DNA from: Ramlibacter sp.
GTDB taxonomy: Bacteria > Pseudomonadota > Gammaproteobacteria > Burkholderiales > Burkholderiaceae_C
DNA length: 36,549 nucleotides
NCBI RefSeq assembly: GCF_028292805.1
Contig: NZ_JAQGLS010000138.1
Span: 1-36,549 of the forward strand
Direction: 5' to 3'
Both the position numbers and the translations under genes were made by a program. Shown here in pieces: positions 9,381 to 18,353 of the stretch; the first letter of the stretch is position 1; each line of letters starts with the position of its first letter. The notes beneath the pieces were generated by a model. It was not told the origin of the DNA, made no database searches, and worked only from the letters and a program-made list of their open reading frames with translations.

Positions 9381-9420
9381 GTGGCTCGCAAGCCATTGAT
9401 TCGACACGGAATAATATGAT

Positions 9421-9464
9421 GTCTTCTATAAGACATAAGAACATCAGGAAGTCTTCTACAAGAC
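9421..9464. promoter_or_regulatory. Paired GTCTT-N4-AAGAC sites upstream of aceA
   Basis: 9421-9434 GTCTTCTATAAGAC and 9451-9464 GTCTTCTACAAGAC; 13/14 identical, offset exactly 30 bp. Confidence 0.65.
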
Positions 9465-9529
9465 TTAAAGTTCATTCACTGCCGGAACACACCCCGGCCC
9501 CGGTTTTGGCAACTACCTTTGGAGTGAAC

Positions 9530-10855
<1,326 letters not shown>

Positions 10856-11039: not shown

Positions 11040-11227
11040 ATGACCTCGAACGAAGACAAGGCGGGGGGTGTTCAACCTGCGCGACCTCAGCGCCGAGCGC
11101 TGCCCCGACTGCGGCGGGCAACCGCATCGACAGCGAGAACATCGACGAGAACTTCGAGGTCGAAAAGCAGACCGTGATCACCGAATGCCCGACCTGCGCC
11201 GGCACCGGCGTGGAGCCGGCGGGTTAG
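11040..11227 (+). pseudogene. Small two-CPxCxG zinc-ribbon protein with two apparent +1 frameshifts
   Basis: MTSNEDKAGG (frame of 11040) then FNLRDLSAERCPDCGG (frame of 11068) then NRIDSENIDENFEVEKQTVITECPTCAGTGVEPAG (frame of 10973). Switches coincide with GGGGGG at 11063-11068 and GGG at 11116-11118. Confidence 0.5.
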
Positions 11228-11275
11228 AATTTGGGCCATCCGAGCCCTGACAAGAGCGAGAAAGGCAACCCGGTG

Positions 11276-11317
11276 ATGACACCGCGAACTACCACGGAAG
11301 CTCCCACGGTCCTGTGA
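11276..11317 (+). CDS. Putative threonine-rich leader peptide of thrS, MTPRTTTEAPTVL
   Basis: atg aca ccg cga act acc acg gaa gct ccc acg gtc ctg tga: 5 Thr in 13 codons including three consecutive; purine-rich GAGAAAGG at 11258-11265; in-frame GTG at 11273 is an alternative start. Confidence 0.8.
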   Translation: MTPRTTTEAPTVL

Positions 11318-11392
11318 GGCCGCGTAGTCGCGTGCACCGAGTTGCCCTCCCCAACTGAAAAGCGCGGCTGCATGTCGCGCTTTTTTGTTTTT
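11283..11392 (+). promoter_or_regulatory. Transcription attenuator leader of thrS (alternative hairpins plus terminator)
   Basis: 1:2 CGCGAACTAC (11283-11292)/GTAGTCGCG (11324-11332); 2:3 GCCGCG (11319-11324)/CGCGGC (11363-11368), enclosing AGTTG/CAACT (11340-11344/11352-11356); 3:4 terminator AAAAGCGCG (11358-11366)/CGCGCTTTT (11376-11384). Confidence 0.75.
11358..11392 (+). terminator. Intrinsic terminator (attenuator) immediately before thrS
   Basis: AAAAGCGCG-gctgcatgt-CGCGCTTTT, perfect 9-bp stem, followed by TTTTTTGTTTTT. Confidence 0.85.
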
Positions 11393-11414
11393 CGCACCCG
11401 GACCAACGCATTCC

Positions 11415-13322
11415 ATGATCCAGATCACGCTTCCCGACGGCTCCCGCCGCGAGTACCCGGCCCCGGTGACGGTCGCCGACGTCGCCGCTTCGATCGGCCC
11501 CGGCCTGGCCAAGGCGGCGCTGGCCGGCAAGGTCAACGGCAAGGTCGTCGACACTTCGGCCGTCATTCCGGACGGCGCCCAGGTGGCGATCGTCACGGCC
11601 AAGGACCCCGAAGGCCTGGACGTGATCCGCCACTCCACGGCGCACCTGCTGGCCTACGCGGTCAAAGAGCTGTTTCCGCAGGCGCAGGTCACGATCGGCC
11701 CGGTGATCGAGAACGGCTTCTATTACGACTTCGCGTACCAGCGGCCCTTCACCCCCGACGACCTGGTCGCCATCGAAAGGCGCATGGCCGAGCTTGCCGC
11801 CAAGGATGAGCCGGTCACGCGCAGGGTGCTGCCGCGCGACGAGGCCGTGGCCCATTTCAAGGGCATCGGCGAGGCCTACAAGGCCGAGATCATCGGCAGC
11901 ATCCCGGCCGGCGAGGACGTCTCGCTGTATGCCGAAGGCAAGTTCGAGGACCTGTGCCGCGGCCCGCACGTGCCCAGCACCGGCAAGCTCAGGCACTTCA
12001 AGCTGATGAAGGTGGCCGGCGCCTACTGGCGTGGCGACCACCGCAACGAGATGCTGCAGCGGGTCTACGGCACCGCCTGGGCCAGCAAGGAGGAGCTGCA
12101 GCAGTACCTGCTCATGCTGGAGGAGGCAGAGAAGCGCGACCACCGCAAGCTGGGCCGCGAACTGGACCTGTTCCACATCGACGACCACGCGCCAGGCGTC
12201 GTGTTCTGGCACCCGCGCGGCTGGGCGCTGTGGCAGGAGGTCGAGCAATACATGCGGCGCGTGTACCGCGACAACGGCTACCTGGAAGTCAAGGGTCCGC
12301 AGCTGCTGGACAAGACGCTGTGGGAAAAGACCGGCCACTGGGACAAGTACCGCGACAACATGTTCACGACGGAGTCGGAAAAGCGCGAGTACGCGCTCAA
12401 GCCGATGAACTGCCCCGGCCACATCCTGATCTACAAGCAGGGCATCAAGAGCTACCGCGACCTGCCGCTGCGCTACGGCGAGTTCGGCCAGTGCCACCGC
12501 AACGAGCCGACTGGCTCCCTGCACGGCATCATGCGGGTGCGCGGCTTCACCCAGGACGACGGCCACATCTTCTGCACGGAAGACCACATCCTGCCGGAGT
12601 GCACTGCGTACACGACGCTGCTGCAGAAGGTGTACCGCGACTTCGGCTTCGAGCACATCATCTACAAGGTCGCGACCCGGCCGGCGGCGCGCATCGGCTC
12701 CGACGAGAGCTGGGACAAGGCCGAGCACGCCCTGATGGAAAGCCTGCGGGCGTCCGGCTGCGAGTTCGAGGTCTCGCCGGGCGACGGCGCCTTCTACGGC
12801 CCGAAGATCGAGTACACGCTCAAGGACGCCATCGGCCGCCAATGGCAGTGCGGCACGATGCAGGTCGATTTCTCCATGCCCGAGCGGCTCGACGCGGAAT
12901 ACGTGGGCGAGGACGGCGCCCGCCACCGTCCGGTCATGCTGCACCGGGCGATTGTCGGCAGCATGGAGCGCTTCATCGGCATCCTGATCGAACAGCACGC
13001 CGGCGCGCTGCCGGCATGGCTGGCGCCGGTGCAGGCGGTGCTGTTGAACATCACCGACGGACAGGCCGATTACGTGCGGGATGTTGCCAAAGCTTTGCAG
13101 AATCAAGGGCTTAGGGTGGCGACCGATCTGCGCAACGAGAAAATTACGTATAAAATACGCGAGCATTCGCTGCAAAAGCCGCCTTACCTCCTCGTCGTCG
13201 GCGAGAAAGAGAAGGCGGCCGGTGCCGTCGCAGTGCGCGCCCGGGGCAATCAGGACCTCGGCGTGATGTCCCTCGAAGCGTTCCAGAAACGGATTGCCGA
13301 AGACATCGCAGGCAAGAGCTGA
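11415..13322 (+). CDS. thrS: Threonyl-tRNA synthetase
   Basis: [28 protein letters not shown] (TGS), [26 protein letters not shown]. Confidence 0.98.
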
Positions 13323-13397: not shown

Positions 13398-14012
13398 ATC
13401 GCTACTGAATTTCGCGACCGCCGCCACCGCGAGGAGCGCAAGCACCGCCTGAACCGGGAGATCATGGCCCCGGAAGTCCGCCTCAGCGGGGTCAACAACG
13501 AACCCCTGGGCATCGTCAACATCACCGAGGCATTGCGCCTTGCCGGTGAAGCGGACGTTGACCTGGTCGAAATTGCCGCCACTGCAGTCCCTCCGGTCTG
13601 CCGGTTGATGGACTACGGCAAGTTCAAGTACCAGGAGCAGAAGAAGGCAGCGGAAGCGAAGGCCAAGCAAACGGTCATCGAGATCAAGGAAGTCAAGTTC
13701 CGACCCGGCACCGACGACGGTGACTACAACATCAAGCTGCGGAACATCCGCCGCTTTTTGGCCGAAGGCGACAAGTGCAAGATCACGCTGCGGTTCCGCG
13801 GCCGCGAGATCACGCACCAGGAAATCGGCGTGGCGCTGCTCAATCGGCTGCGCGACGACCTGGCGGACACGATCCTCGTGGAGCAGTTCCCCAAGCTGGA
13901 AGGCCGGCAGATGGTCATGATGATCGCGCCAGGCAAAAAGAAGCCGGCGGCCACCAAGGCCGCCGAGGGTGCCGCCGCCGCCGCTCCGGTGACGACGACG
14001 CCGTCGACGTAA
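13398..14012 (+). CDS. infC: Translation initiation factor IF-3, probable AUC start codon
   Basis: In-frame TGA at 13383; SD GAAGGA at 13384-13389; atc gct act gaa ttt cgc gac = [40 protein letters not shown]; no ATG/GTG/TTG before the internal Met at 13464. Confidence 0.9.
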
Positions 14013-14057
14013 ATAGTTTCAGAGCCATCACGGTTTGGTCGCCGCGGTGGTGGTGAA

Positions 14058-14077
14058 GGAAGGGCTTTGGCCCTTCC
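14058..14077 (+). promoter_or_regulatory. Hairpin in the infC-rpmI intergenic leader
   Basis: GGAAGGGC-tttg-GCCCTTCC, perfect 8-bp stem and tetraloop in a 166-bp gap before rpmI. Confidence 0.5.
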
Positions 14078-14178
14078 ACCCGGCGCACCCCAGGGTTCGC
14101 CAAATAGTGGCTCGAGGCTCTCAAGACGCGGTCTTTTCCGCGGCGCCTCACGAGCACGAACGAAGAAGGAGCATTCAC

Positions 14179-14382
14179 ATGCCCAAGATGAAGACCAAGA
14201 GCGGTGCGAAGAAGCGCTTCCGCGTCCGTCCCGGTGGGACGGTCAAGCGCGGCCAGGCCTTCAAGCGTCACATCCTGACCAAGAAGTCCACCAAGACCAA
14301 GCGCCACCTGCGTGGCTCGGTTGCCGTGCATGAGACCAACATGGGTCACATGGCGCAAATGCTGCCGTTCGCCGGCCTTTAA
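14179..14382 (+). CDS. rpmI: 50S ribosomal protein L35
   Basis: [46 protein letters not shown]. Confidence 0.98.
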
Positions 14383-14406
14383 CCCACAGACGAAAGGAAA
14401 ACTCAC

Positions 14407-14766
14407 ATGCCTCGCGTCAAACGTGGTGTAACGGCTCGCGCCCGACACAAGAAGGTTCTCGCCCTCGCCAAGGGCTTCCGCGGCCGCCGCGGCAACGTCT
14501 ATCGCATCGCCAAACAGGCGGTGATGAAGGCGGGCCAGTATGCGTACCGTGACCGCCGTGCCAAGAAGCGTGTCTTCCGCCAGCTGTGGATCGCCCGTAT
14601 CAACGCCGCCGCGCGCCTGAACGGGATGACTTACAGCCAGTTCGCCAACGGGATCCGCAAGGCCGGCATCGAGATCGACCGCAAGGTTCTCGCCGATATC
14701 GCCTATCACGACCCCGCGGCGTTTGCCGGCATCGTGGAGCAAGTCAAGGCCAAGCTGGCTGCTTGA
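14407..14766 (+). CDS. rplT: 50S ribosomal protein L20
   Basis: [70 protein letters not shown]. Confidence 0.98.
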
Positions 14767-14814
14767 GTTCACGGTAGGCGCACCCGCAAGGGAGCGCCTG
14801 GTGTCAACCACAGG

Positions 14815-14855
14815 ACGGGGCTAGGGCTGCAAGGCGCTAGCCCCGTTTTCTTTTT
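14815..14855 (+). terminator. Intrinsic terminator/attenuator between rplT and pheS
   Basis: ACGGGGCTAG (14815-14824) / CTAGCCCCGT (14837-14846), perfect 10-bp stem, then TTTTCTTTTT, 4 bp before the pheS ATG. Confidence 0.82.
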
Positions 14856-14858
14856 CCC

Positions 14859-15917
14859 ATGACCACAGAACACGAAGCCATCATCGAGTCGGCCCGCGCG
14901 GCCTTCGCCGGCGCGGCCACGCCCGCGGAACTGGAAAACGCCAAGGCGCAGTTCATCGGCAAGTCCGGCCGCATCACCGAGCTGATGAAGGGCCTGGCCG
15001 CGTTGCCGGTCGACGAGAAGAAGTCGCGCGGCGCCGCCATCAACCAGGCCAAGCAGGCGATCGAAGCCGCGCTGGGCGAGCGCCGCCAGGCGCTGGCCGA
15101 CGCCGAACTCGAAGCGCAGCTCGAAGCCGAGGCGCTCGACGTCTCGCTGCCGGGGCGCGTGCGCGAACCGGGCGGCCTGCACCCGGTCTCCCTGACCCTG
15201 GAGCGCATCGAGCAGATCTTTGCCAGCATGGGTTTCGCCGTGGCCGACGGCCCCGAGATCGAGAGCGACTGGCACAGCTTCACCTCGCTCAACAACCCGC
15301 CCAACCACCCGGCGCGCTCGATGCAGGACACGTTCTACGTGGACATCGATGGCGACGACGGCATCCCCTACAACCTGCGCCCGCACACCAGCCCGATGCA
15401 GGTGCGCTACGCCCACGCGCACATCAAGAAATACGCCGAAGCGGTCAAGCGCGGCGAAGCGATGCCCGAGATCCGCGTGATCGCCCCCGGCCGCACCTAC
15501 CGCGTCGACAGCGACGCGACGCACTCGCCGATGTTCCACCAGTGCGAAGGCCTGTGGCTGGGCGAGAACGTCAGCTTCAAGGACCTGAAGGTCGTCTTCA
15601 CCGATTTTTGCCGCACCTTCTTCGAAAGCGACGACCTGGCGCTGCGCTTTCGGCCCAGCTTCTTCCCGTTCACCGAGCCCAGCGCCGAGATTGACATCCA
15701 GTTCCAGAGCGGGCCGCTGGCCGGCCGCTGGCTGGAAGTGGCAGGTTCCGGCCAGGTGCACCCGCAAGTGGTGCGCAACATGGGGCTGGACCCGGAAAAG
15801 CACATCGGCTTCGCGTTCGGCATGGGACCGGACCGGCTGACCATGCTGCGCTACGGGGTGAGTGACCTGCGCCTGTTCTTCGACGGCGACATCCGTTTCC
15901 TGCGCCAGTTCCGCTGA
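14859..15917 (+). CDS. pheS: Phenylalanyl-tRNA synthetase alpha subunit
   Basis: [47 protein letters not shown]. Confidence 0.98.
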
Positions 15918-15938
15918 TTCACCGATCCAAAGACGTTC

Positions 15939-18353
15939 ATGCAATTCCCCGAGTCCTGGTTGCGCGCGTTCTGCAACCCGCCGCTGTCCACGCAAGAGAT
16001 CGCCGACGTGCTCACCATGGGTGGGCTGGAGGTGGAGGACCTGCGCCCGCTGGCACCGCCGTTCAGCCTGGTCGTGGTCGGCGAGATCAAGGAAGCCGTC
16101 CAGCACCCCAACGCCGACCGCCTGCGCGTGTGCCAGGTGGACGTGGGGCGGGGCGCCTTGCTCAGCATCGTCTGCGGCGCGCCCAATGCGCGCGTCGGCA
16201 TCCGCGTGCCGACCGCGCTGGTCGGCGCCGAACTGCCGCCGGGCGAGGACGGCAAGCCGTTCGCCATCAAGCGGGGCTTGCTGCGCGGCGTCGAGAGCCA
16301 GGGCATGCTGTGCTCGGCGCGCGAATTGAAGCTGAGCGAAGACCACGGCGGCCTGCTGGAGCTGGCGGCGGACACGCCGATCGGGGCCAACGTGCGCGAC
16401 GTGCTCAAGCTCGATGACCACGTCTTCACGCTCAAGCTCACGCCCAACCTGGCCCATGCGCTCAGCGTGTACGGCGTGGCGCGCGAGCTGTCTGCGCTGA
16501 CCGGTGCGCCGCTGCAGCAGCCGGAATTCGCGCCGGTGCCGACCAGGAATGACGCCAGGCTCAAGGTCACCGTCAGCGCGCCCGACCTGTGCGGGCGTTT
16601 TTCGGGCCGCGTGATCCGCAACGTCGACACCAGGGCGAAGACGCCCCAGTGGATGGTGGAACGCCTGGCCGGTTGCGGCCAGCGCAGCGTCACCGCGCTG
16701 GTGGACATCTCCAACTACGTGATGTTCGAGTTCGGCCGGCCCTCGCACATCTTTGACCTGGACAAGATCCACGGCGGCCTCGACGTGCGCTGGGGCCGTC
16801 CCGGCGAGCAGCTCAAGCTGCTCAATGGCACGACGATCACGGTGGACGAGAAGGTCGGCGTGATCGCCGACGACGCCCAGGTGGAGTCGCTGGCCGGCAT
16901 CATGGGCGGCGACGGCACGGCCGTCTCCGACGACACCCGCAACGTCTACGTCGAAGCCGCGTTCTGGTGGCCGCAAGCGGTGCAAGGCCGCTCGCGCCGC
17001 TACAACTTCTCCACCGACGCCGGCCACCGCTTCGAGCGCGGCGTCGACCCCAGCCTGACGGTTGCCCACATCGAGCACGTCACCCGCCTGGTGATCGAGA
17101 TCTGCGGCGGCGAAGCCGGCCCCATGGACGACCAGGTGCTGCGCCAGCCCGAGCGCCAGCCGGTGCAACTGCGCGTCGCCCGCGCTGCCAAGGTGATCGG
17201 CATGCCGGTGACCGAGGCCCAGTGCCTGGACGCGTTCCGCCGGCTGGGCCTGCCGGCGAGCGCCGCCGACGGGGTGGTGACGGTCACGCCGCCGCCTTAC
17301 CGCTTCGACCTCGCCATCGAGGAAGACCTGATCGAGGAGGTGGTGCGGATCATCGGCTACGACCAGCTGCCGACCACGCCGCCGCTGGCACCCATCACGG
17401 CCAAGCTTCCGCCGGAAAACCGCCGCGGCCGATTTGCGATCCGCCGCCTGCTGGCGGCCCTGGGCTACCAGGAGACGATCAACTTCAGATTCGTCGAGGC
17501 GCACTGGGAACGGGAGCTGGCCGGCAACCCCGATCCGATCAAGCTGCTCAATCCCATCGCCAGCCAGATGAGCGTGATGCGCTCCTCGCTGCTCGGCTCG
17601 CTGCTGCAGGTGCTCAAGTTCAACCTGGACCGCAAGGCCGAGAGGGTGCGCGTGTTCGAGCTGGGCCGGGTGTTCCTGCGTGATGCCTCGGTGCCGACCA
17701 CCGACCGCACCGTGCATGGCGTGCACCAGCCGATGAAGGTGGCAGGCCTGGCCTACGGCGCCGCCGACGGACTGCAGTGGGCGCGCAAGGCCGGCGCCGT
17801 CGACTTCTACGACCTCAAGGGCGACGTGCAGGCGCTGCTGGCGCCGCTGCAGGCCGAGTTCGTGCCCTTCGCGCATCCGGCGATGCATCCCGGGCGTTGC
17901 GCGGCGGTGCGCATCGACGGCCACGAGGTCGGCGTGATCGGAGAGCTGCATCCGCGCTGGCGCCAGCAGTGGGAACTGCCGCACACGCCGCTGCTGTTCG
18001 AGATCGATCTGGACGCCGTCGCTGCCCGCCGCATCCCTGCCTTCGAGCCGGTGCCGAAGTTCCAGCCGGCCGAGCGTGACATCGCCGTCATCGTGGCCGA
18101 CAGCGTGACGCACGACGCCCTGCTGCGCGCCATCCGTGCCGCCGACACCGGGCTGCTGCGCGACGCGATGCTGTTCGACGTGTACAAGCCGCAGCATGCC
18201 GCCGGCGGCCTCCATGCCGGGGAGAAAAGCCTGGCAGTGCGCTTGACGCTGGGCAGTGCCGCAGCCACACTGACCGACGACCAGATCGAGGCTGCAGTGC
18301 GGGCCATCCTGGAGCGCATCACGATCCAGCTCGGCGGCCGCCTGAGGGGGTGA
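15939..18353 (+). CDS. pheT: Phenylalanyl-tRNA synthetase beta subunit
   Basis: MQFPESWLRAFCNPPLSTQEIADVLTMGGLEVEDL, tRNA-binding domain, C-terminal anticodon-binding domain. Confidence 0.98.
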   Translation: MQFPESWLRAFCNPPLSTQEIADVLTMGGLEVEDLRPLAPPFSLVVVGEIKEAVQHPNADRLRVCQVDVGRGALLSIVCGAPNARVGIRVPTALVGAELPPGEDGKPFAIKRGLLRGVESQGMLCSARELKLSEDHGGLLELAADTPIGANVRDVLKLDDHVFTLKLTPNLAHALSVYGVARELSALTGAPLQQPEFAPVPTRNDARLKVTVSAPDLCGRFSGRVIRNVDTRAKTPQWMVERLAGCGQRSVTALVDISNYVMFEFGRPSHIFDLDKIHGGLDVRWGRPGEQLKLLNGTTITVDEKVGVIADDAQVESLAGIMGGDGTAVSDDTRNVYVEAAFWWPQAVQGRSRRYNFSTDAGHRFERGVDPSLTVAHIEHVTRLVIEICGGEAGPMDDQVLRQPERQPVQLRVARAAKVIGMPVTEAQCLDAFRRLGLPASAADGVVTVTPPPYRFDLAIEEDLIEEVVRIIGYDQLPTTPPLAPITAKLPPENRRGRFAIRRLLAALGYQETINFRFVEAHWERELAGNPDPIKLLNPIASQMSVMRSSLLGSLLQVLKFNLDRKAERVRVFELGRVFLRDASVPTTDRTVHGVHQPMKVAGLAYGAADGLQWARKAGAVDFYDLKGDVQALLAPLQAEFVPFAHPAMHPGRCAAVRIDGHEVGVIGELHPRWRQQWELPHTPLLFEIDLDAVAARRIPAFEPVPKFQPAERDIAVIVADSVTHDALLRAIRAADTGLLRDAMLFDVYKPQHAAGGLHAGEKSLAVRLTLGSAAATLTDDQIEAAVRAILERITIQLGGRLRG

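Follow-up and report, generated by a model that had tools for sequence, protein, structure and literature searches.

The window, i.e. the whole stretch of 36,549 nucleotides of Ramlibacter sp. DNA that was analysed, contains a thrS gene (encoding threonyl-tRNA synthetase, ThrRS) whose closest named relatives are those of Rhodoferax, Polaromonas, Methylibium and other Burkholderiales. It is the first of six genes on one strand, in the order thrS, infC, rpmI, rplT, pheS and pheT, which are presumed to form an operon. The gene for isocitrate lyase (9416-10855) lies upstream, and the leader described here lies in the gap up to thrS at 11415. Between the isocitrate lyase gene and the leader, positions 11040-11228 resemble a gene for a small CPxCGG zinc-ribbon protein that frameshifts, due to assembly errors or decay, have disrupted. 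Further downstream, the gap between rplT and pheS (14767-14858) holds a hairpin, GGGGCTAG...CTAGCCCC, followed by a T-rich tail; no Phe-rich ORF was found preceding this hairpin in the window. The features of the locus are as follows.

11225-11230, + strand: TAGAAT, a -10-like hexamer taken to mark the start of the leader transcript, with no good -35
11258-11265, + strand: Shine-Dalgarno (SD) sequence GAGAAAGG of the leader peptide, read directly
11264-11269, + strand: 5' arm GGCAAC of helix P0 (with GAG at 11258-11260); its partner is GTTGCC at 11341-11346, then CTC
11276-11317, + strand: leader ORF MTPRTTTEAPTVL, 13 codons, from ATG at 11276 to the end of TGA at 11317
11283-11292, + strand: region 1, CGCGAACTAC, within codons 3-6; its partner is region 2
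11307-11322, + strand: tip hairpin CGGTC/GGCCG, whose loop contains the stop codon; 94.4% of cells paired
11324-11333, + strand: region 2, GTAGTCGCGT; its partner is region 1 in the terminator state and region 3 in the antiterminator state
11340-11356, + strand: inner hairpin AGTTG/CAACT inside the antiterminator, from folds of the free RNA 3' of a stalled ribosome
11358-11392, + strand: intrinsic terminator AAAAGCGCGGC-TGCAT-GTCGCGCTTTTTTGTTTTT (regions 3:4), stem 11358-11384, T-rich tail ending at 11392
11362-11371, + strand: region 3, GCGCGGCTGC; 5' arm of the terminator, paired with region 2 in the antiterminator state
11415-13322, + strand: thrS (NCBIfam TIGR00418, E 2e-213), first gene under the presumed control
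13464-18353, + strand: infC, rpmI, rplT, pheS and pheT, the remainder of the presumed operon (NCBIfam equivalog models, each above cut-off)

The SD sequence, the 13-codon ORF with five Thr codons, the stem between regions 1 and 2 (1:2) and the terminator preceding thrS, all reported in the initial annotation, could be read directly at positions 11258-11392, and only the spacing had to be adjusted, as the T-rich tail ends 22 rather than 23 nt before the thrS start codon. The Thr codons are numbers 2, 5, 6, 7 and 11 of the 13 codons of MTPRTTTEAPTVL. Several codons of the leader are rare: ACA and ACT make up 3.3% and 4.9% of the Thr codons, and CGA 1.6% of the Arg codons, in six coding sequences of the window. 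When the intergenic region was shuffled 300 times with dinucleotide composition preserved, no ORF with four Thr codons in six arose. The leader RNA is predicted to fold more stably than all of 200 shuffled sequences (z -4.4), and the terminator segment has a z-score of -4.2 against its shuffles. In this species only, the leader might instead start at an in-frame GTG at 11273. In the genus alignment of 48 sequences (A1) the SD motif GAAAGGCA is invariant. A promoter scan at sigma-70 stringency called no promoter for the leader; a TANAAT hexamer is present 45-60 nt upstream of the leader ATG in 34 of the 48 genus members, with a peak at -49 to -51.

The pairings were scored in A1 as the percentage of cells paired, and across families with a swap test, in which native pairing energies of two arms were compared with those of swapped arms (20000 permutations, kinship ignored). 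The conserved antiterminator helix (2:3) is formed by GUAGUCGCGU (11324-11333) and GCGCGGCUGC (11362-11371). The initial annotation had placed the 2:3 stem at GCCGCG/CGCGGC, which can form, but is neither the most stable 2:3 pairing in the window nor the conserved one: 87.5% of its cells are paired, 28 of 47 sequences disrupt one of its pairs and compensatory changes number zero. With the antiterminator corrected to 11324-11333 and 11362-11371, one and the same arm is used in two stems, as GUAGUCGCGU pairs with CGCGAACUAC (11283-11292) in 1:2 and with region 3 in 2:3, making 1:2, 2:3 and 3:4 a set of mutually exclusive alternatives. For a ribosome placed at codon 2, 5, 6 or 7, folding of the free RNA as far as region 3 gives a predicted minimum free energy (MFE) structure that has a 10-bp 2:3 helix with the AGUUG/CAACU hairpin inside it; for a ribosome at the stop codon, the predicted MFE structure lacks the 2:3 antiterminator. 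The inner hairpin is found in some close relatives only.

Together with the tip hairpin, the 2:3 helix has 92.3% of its cells paired in A1, and its covariation score exceeds those of all 500 shuffles and of all slid versions. The corresponding percentages are 93.7% for 1:2 alone, 94.0% for 1:2 with the tip hairpin (both over 48 sequences) and 91.3% for the terminator stem, and a terminator is present in 135 of 136 homologs. Compensatory changes in the tip hairpin replace GC by AU in 11 sequences and GC by CG in 2. Regions 2 and 3 change jointly between genera, as in GUCCGCG/CGCGGAC of Rhodoferax, GACCGCG/CGCGGUC of Methylibium and CUAGUCG/CGGCUAG of Massilia. In the swap test, none of 20000 permutations reached the native energy of 2:3, either with 135 sequences (z -6.5) or with 96 representatives (z -4.7; kinship ignored in both). 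The 1:2 helix scored z -3.8 across families (2/20000, kinship ignored); its weak covariation within the genus is due to region 1 being nearly constant.

A further helix, P0, had been missed in the initial annotation. The stretch of about 30 nt 5' of the leader ATG, including the SD sequence, is complementary to the segment immediately preceding the terminator. In the window this helix consists of GGCAAC/GUUGCC and GAG/CUC, and it is part of the MFE structure of the whole leader. Its arms vary by family with retention of complementarity, e.g. AUCAAACUC/GAGUUUGAU in L336 and CUCAAAUGGC/GCCAUUUGAG in L321, and the swap test with 74 representatives gave z -5.5 (0/20000, kinship ignored), against z -1.7 for a control in which the segment was paired with the terminator arm. 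As the 3' arm of P0 overlaps the 5' arm of the inner hairpin, P0 and the antiterminator hairpin are mutually exclusive. The leader anatomy is thus maintained by covariation, since 1:2, 2:3 and the SD helix all pair better within than between species. The compensatory pairing looked for in orthologous leaders was thereby found, with 2:3 and the SD helix co-evolving and 0 of 20000 permutations reaching native energy.

Upstream regions of thrS were collected from genomes of the same genus, from 80 named relatives and from samples of the order. A homologous leader was identified in at least 136 of these regions, from many betaproteobacterial families, at 112-280 nt upstream of thrS. The start of the ORF, ATG ACA CCG CGA ACN (MTPRT), is near-invariant and belongs to a fuller core GTT ATG ACA CCG CGA AC(T/G/C). 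Among 135 leaders, ACA (Thr2) is found in 132, CCG in 134, CGA in 126, an ACN codon at position 5 (Thr5) in all 135 and Thr6 in 87, and the codon preceding ATG is GTT in 134, the sole exception being the GTG of the window. Thr codons in orthologous leaders, asked about alongside the pairing, are therefore present in the form of Thr5 (135/135) and Thr2 (132/135), and Thr runs occur in the unrelated peptides of other families. Thr6 and Thr7 are variable; 28 of the 135 leaders carry just two Thr codons, and some other leaders, such as MFRTCSLALYC and MGFRTCMPDSMHRF (L279 and L337), carry a single one. So low a number is unexpected in a Thr sensor and counts against a reading as Thr attenuator. 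In 399 genomes of the order, the examined exact or one-mismatch matches to the 18-nt core pattern were nearly all located directly upstream of thrS; for two matches, in L145 and L148, no thrS start was found within the stretch taken, so that their position relative to the gene could not be assigned. One Polaromonas sequence (L010) has ATA in place of the leader start codon (CTATAACACCGCGAATTGG) and may be a decaying copy.

The nucleotide invariance of GTT ATG ACA CCG CGA AC exceeds the needs of a codon-counting device. One could envisage a nascent-peptide attenuator or a programmed pause, in which an Arg-Thr core (CGA-ACN or MTPRT) halts the ribosome and the signal is translation speed or a peptide ligand instead of the charging of Thr-tRNA. 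CGA ACN is indeed the only feature common to nearly all leaders, some of which have one Thr codon, the first five codons and the preceding GTT are invariant at the nucleotide level, and few Arg codons of the window are rarer than CGA. This invariance is, however, partly due to the pairing of region 1 with region 2, and runs of the type RTTTT recur at the same place in unrelated peptides (L059, L277, L291, L300, L321, L325), which would be unexpected for a fixed arrest peptide. We consider such a pause mechanism unlikely.

Unrelated peptides with Thr runs were found at the same site in Ralstonia (MIQAPRTTTASERQ), Achromobacter (MFFPPARTTTRNFRPMSR), Vogesella (MFKRTTTTRISR) and Aquitalea (MKHWRTTTTRHSHAS), and in further betaproteobacteria (MSFRTTTTGTLNLG, MQLNRTTTTS, MAVRTTTTHP, MSCRTTTTRER). 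Arg-Thr is the core common to the leaders, including those with one or two Thr codons. In an even sample of the order, at least one member of 20 out of 39 families has a candidate leader by a loose rule that includes some chance ORFs. Thr is the most enriched residue in ORFs preceding thrS in the order: after masking of tRNAs, four Thr in five codons were found in such ORFs in 10 of 83 genomes of the order, the next residue being Arg with 2. Outside the order the same Thr density was seen in 1 of 66, which does not support Thr leaders as common to gammaproteobacteria in general, the short Xanthomonadales-like type apart. Thr-rich ORFs starting with MVGVVGSSPIAPTTT, seen in several species, proved to be an artefact of reading through tRNA-Val and disappeared upon tRNA masking. 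In Xanthomonadales-like sequences (L071, L073, L074, L225-L227) a separate short Thr leader (peptides MSTTTAQR, MSTTTAHC, MATTRFHC and MSTTPI, preceded by a conserved GTGCGACATG) lies before thrS and is followed by a terminator. Some Comamonadaceae (L016, L017, L023, L042) retain, directly ahead of thrS, an element resembling a promoter and a GC-rich hairpin ending in a U-tract, but no leader ORF.

Of 149 regions sampled from the class (L231-L387), 104 have a tRNA-Val(GAC) gene upstream of thrS, so that in many species tRNA-Val and thrS probably share a transcript that contains the attenuator. One mapped start in Cupriavidus metallidurans that is attributed to thrS bears an apparent RNA-gene locus tag, Rmet_R0015 (PMC9045368). 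The genus of the window, by contrast, has the -10-like hexamer about 50 nt upstream of the leader.

These upstream genes raise the question of whether the hairpin is simply the terminator of the preceding gene (isocitrate lyase here, tRNA-Val elsewhere), accompanied by a chance ORF, with the thrS promoter further downstream. Three regions in which only a hairpin with U-tract was seen and no leader ORF (L016, L017, L042) would fit this explanation. We nevertheless find it scarcely credible, given that just 22 nt separate the U-tract from the thrS start, that the frame and codons of the ORF are kept across many families, and that the alternative pairings co-evolve.

Regulation of thrS expression through its own product is a further alternative, as E. 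coli ThrRS regulates its own mRNA by binding to an operator, which blocks expression at the level of translation initiation. Feedback on thrS would be common to both systems, but here the conserved part consists of an ORF and a terminator. If ThrRS, or some other RNA-binding protein encoded in the operon (cf. L20 on rpmI-rplT), acted on the leader and the short ORF were incidental, this would suit the strong nucleotide conservation near the leader start codon. The conserved element is, however, an ORF with SD sequence and start codon that precedes alternative stems and then an intrinsic terminator. None of the known leader families was matched, and the Thr-codon runs recur in unrelated sequences; inspection of the folds by eye revealed no hairpin resembling the anticodon arm of tRNA-Thr. 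Protein-mediated autoregulation appears very unlikely.

We propose that the transcription of thrS-infC-rpmI-rplT-pheS-pheT is controlled by ribosome-mediated attenuation in response to the supply of charged Thr-tRNA, which we regard as highly probable. What the computational comparison shows directly is the ORF with its codons, a set of alternative pairings that co-evolve, and a location ahead of thrS that recurs in many families. When Thr-tRNA is ample, the ribosome would advance to the tip loop, where the stop codon lies, and cover region 2, allowing the terminator 3:4 to form and leaving thrS untranscribed. When it is scarce, the ribosome would stall at Thr codon 2, 5, 6 or 7 and cover region 1; region 2 would then be free to pair with region 3, no terminator would form and transcription would continue into thrS. 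An untranslated leader would have its SD sequence hidden by P0 and form 1:2, with termination as the default. Low levels of charged Thr-tRNA would in this way probably lead to more ThrRS; the stalling, its co-transcriptional timing and the response to threonine are what we infer from the leader architecture. Thr-tRNA attenuation accounts for the ORF, the rare Thr codons, the switch and its position, but only in part for the fact that the leaders have CGA-ACN, and not the Thr runs, in common; RNA pairing of region 1 and a slow CGA codon may contribute. The initial reading as a Thr attenuator is supported, with a different 2:3 arm and with the SD-sequestering P0 helix added.

A far more tentative extension, which we consider rather doubtful as a whole, is that the leaders form an ancestral betaproteobacterial class in which a fixed pair of rare Arg and Thr codons (CGA-ACN), lineage-specific Thr runs and the SD-sequestering helix make up a three-helix switch sensing both Thr-tRNA charging and the rate of leader initiation. 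In many species this switch could be situated inside a tRNA-Val-thrS transcript, with one promoter feeding the tRNA and, conditionally, the translation operon.

A close relative in mechanism is pheM-pheST of E. coli, in which an aminoacyl-tRNA synthetase operon is subject to ribosome-mediated attenuation. Both systems have a short leader peptide rich in the cognate residue, alternative 1:2, 2:3 and 3:4 stems and a terminator, and in both the synthetase gene that follows belongs to the same cluster; unlike pheM, the leader described here is a Thr leader and precedes thrS instead of lying between rplT and pheS, and the sequences are not known to be related. Enterobacterial thrL, the leader of thrABC (Thr operon leader, RF00506), likewise is an attenuator that uses Thr codons; it controls biosynthesis and counts Ile codons as well. 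In T-box leaders of Firmicutes, synthetase genes are controlled by antitermination upon direct reading of the uncharged cognate tRNA, without translation; a rise of synthetase transcription by antitermination is what is proposed here as well, whereas the present leader has a conserved ORF. No Rfam family, including Thr_leader (RF00506) and the T-box covariance model (RF00230), matched the window at gathering threshold or positions 11150-11450 at E <= 10.

The literature search yielded no description of a betaproteobacterial thrS attenuator, and an earlier one is possible in attenuator surveys under subscription, which lay outside the search. The view that a Thr leader controlling thrS is without precedent is too strong, as a Thr-containing leader peptide, thrL (MKRVRPFLETTPGFVPAR, two Thr codons), is listed as an annotated attenuator upstream of thrS in Streptomyces lividans (PMC8079986). 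According to that paper, its transcript is leaderless and termination is unclear (PMC8079986). By eye, the published peptide has Thr-Thr in common with the MTPRT leaders and no other likeness. The proposed mechanism is known, from pheM-pheST and S. lividans thrL-thrS, and the betaproteobacterial family, absent from Rfam, seems to be undescribed.

The leader predicts how many betaproteobacteria tune ThrRS and, via the shared transcript, IF3, two ribosomal proteins and phenylalanyl-tRNA synthetase. It constitutes a widely distributed RNA family that could be added to Rfam, where it is missing, and its natural variants, with one to seven Thr codons and covarying stems, allow one to ask how many control codons an attenuator minimally needs. 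Finally, it suggests that the same gene, thrS, is under different control in different groups of proteobacteria.
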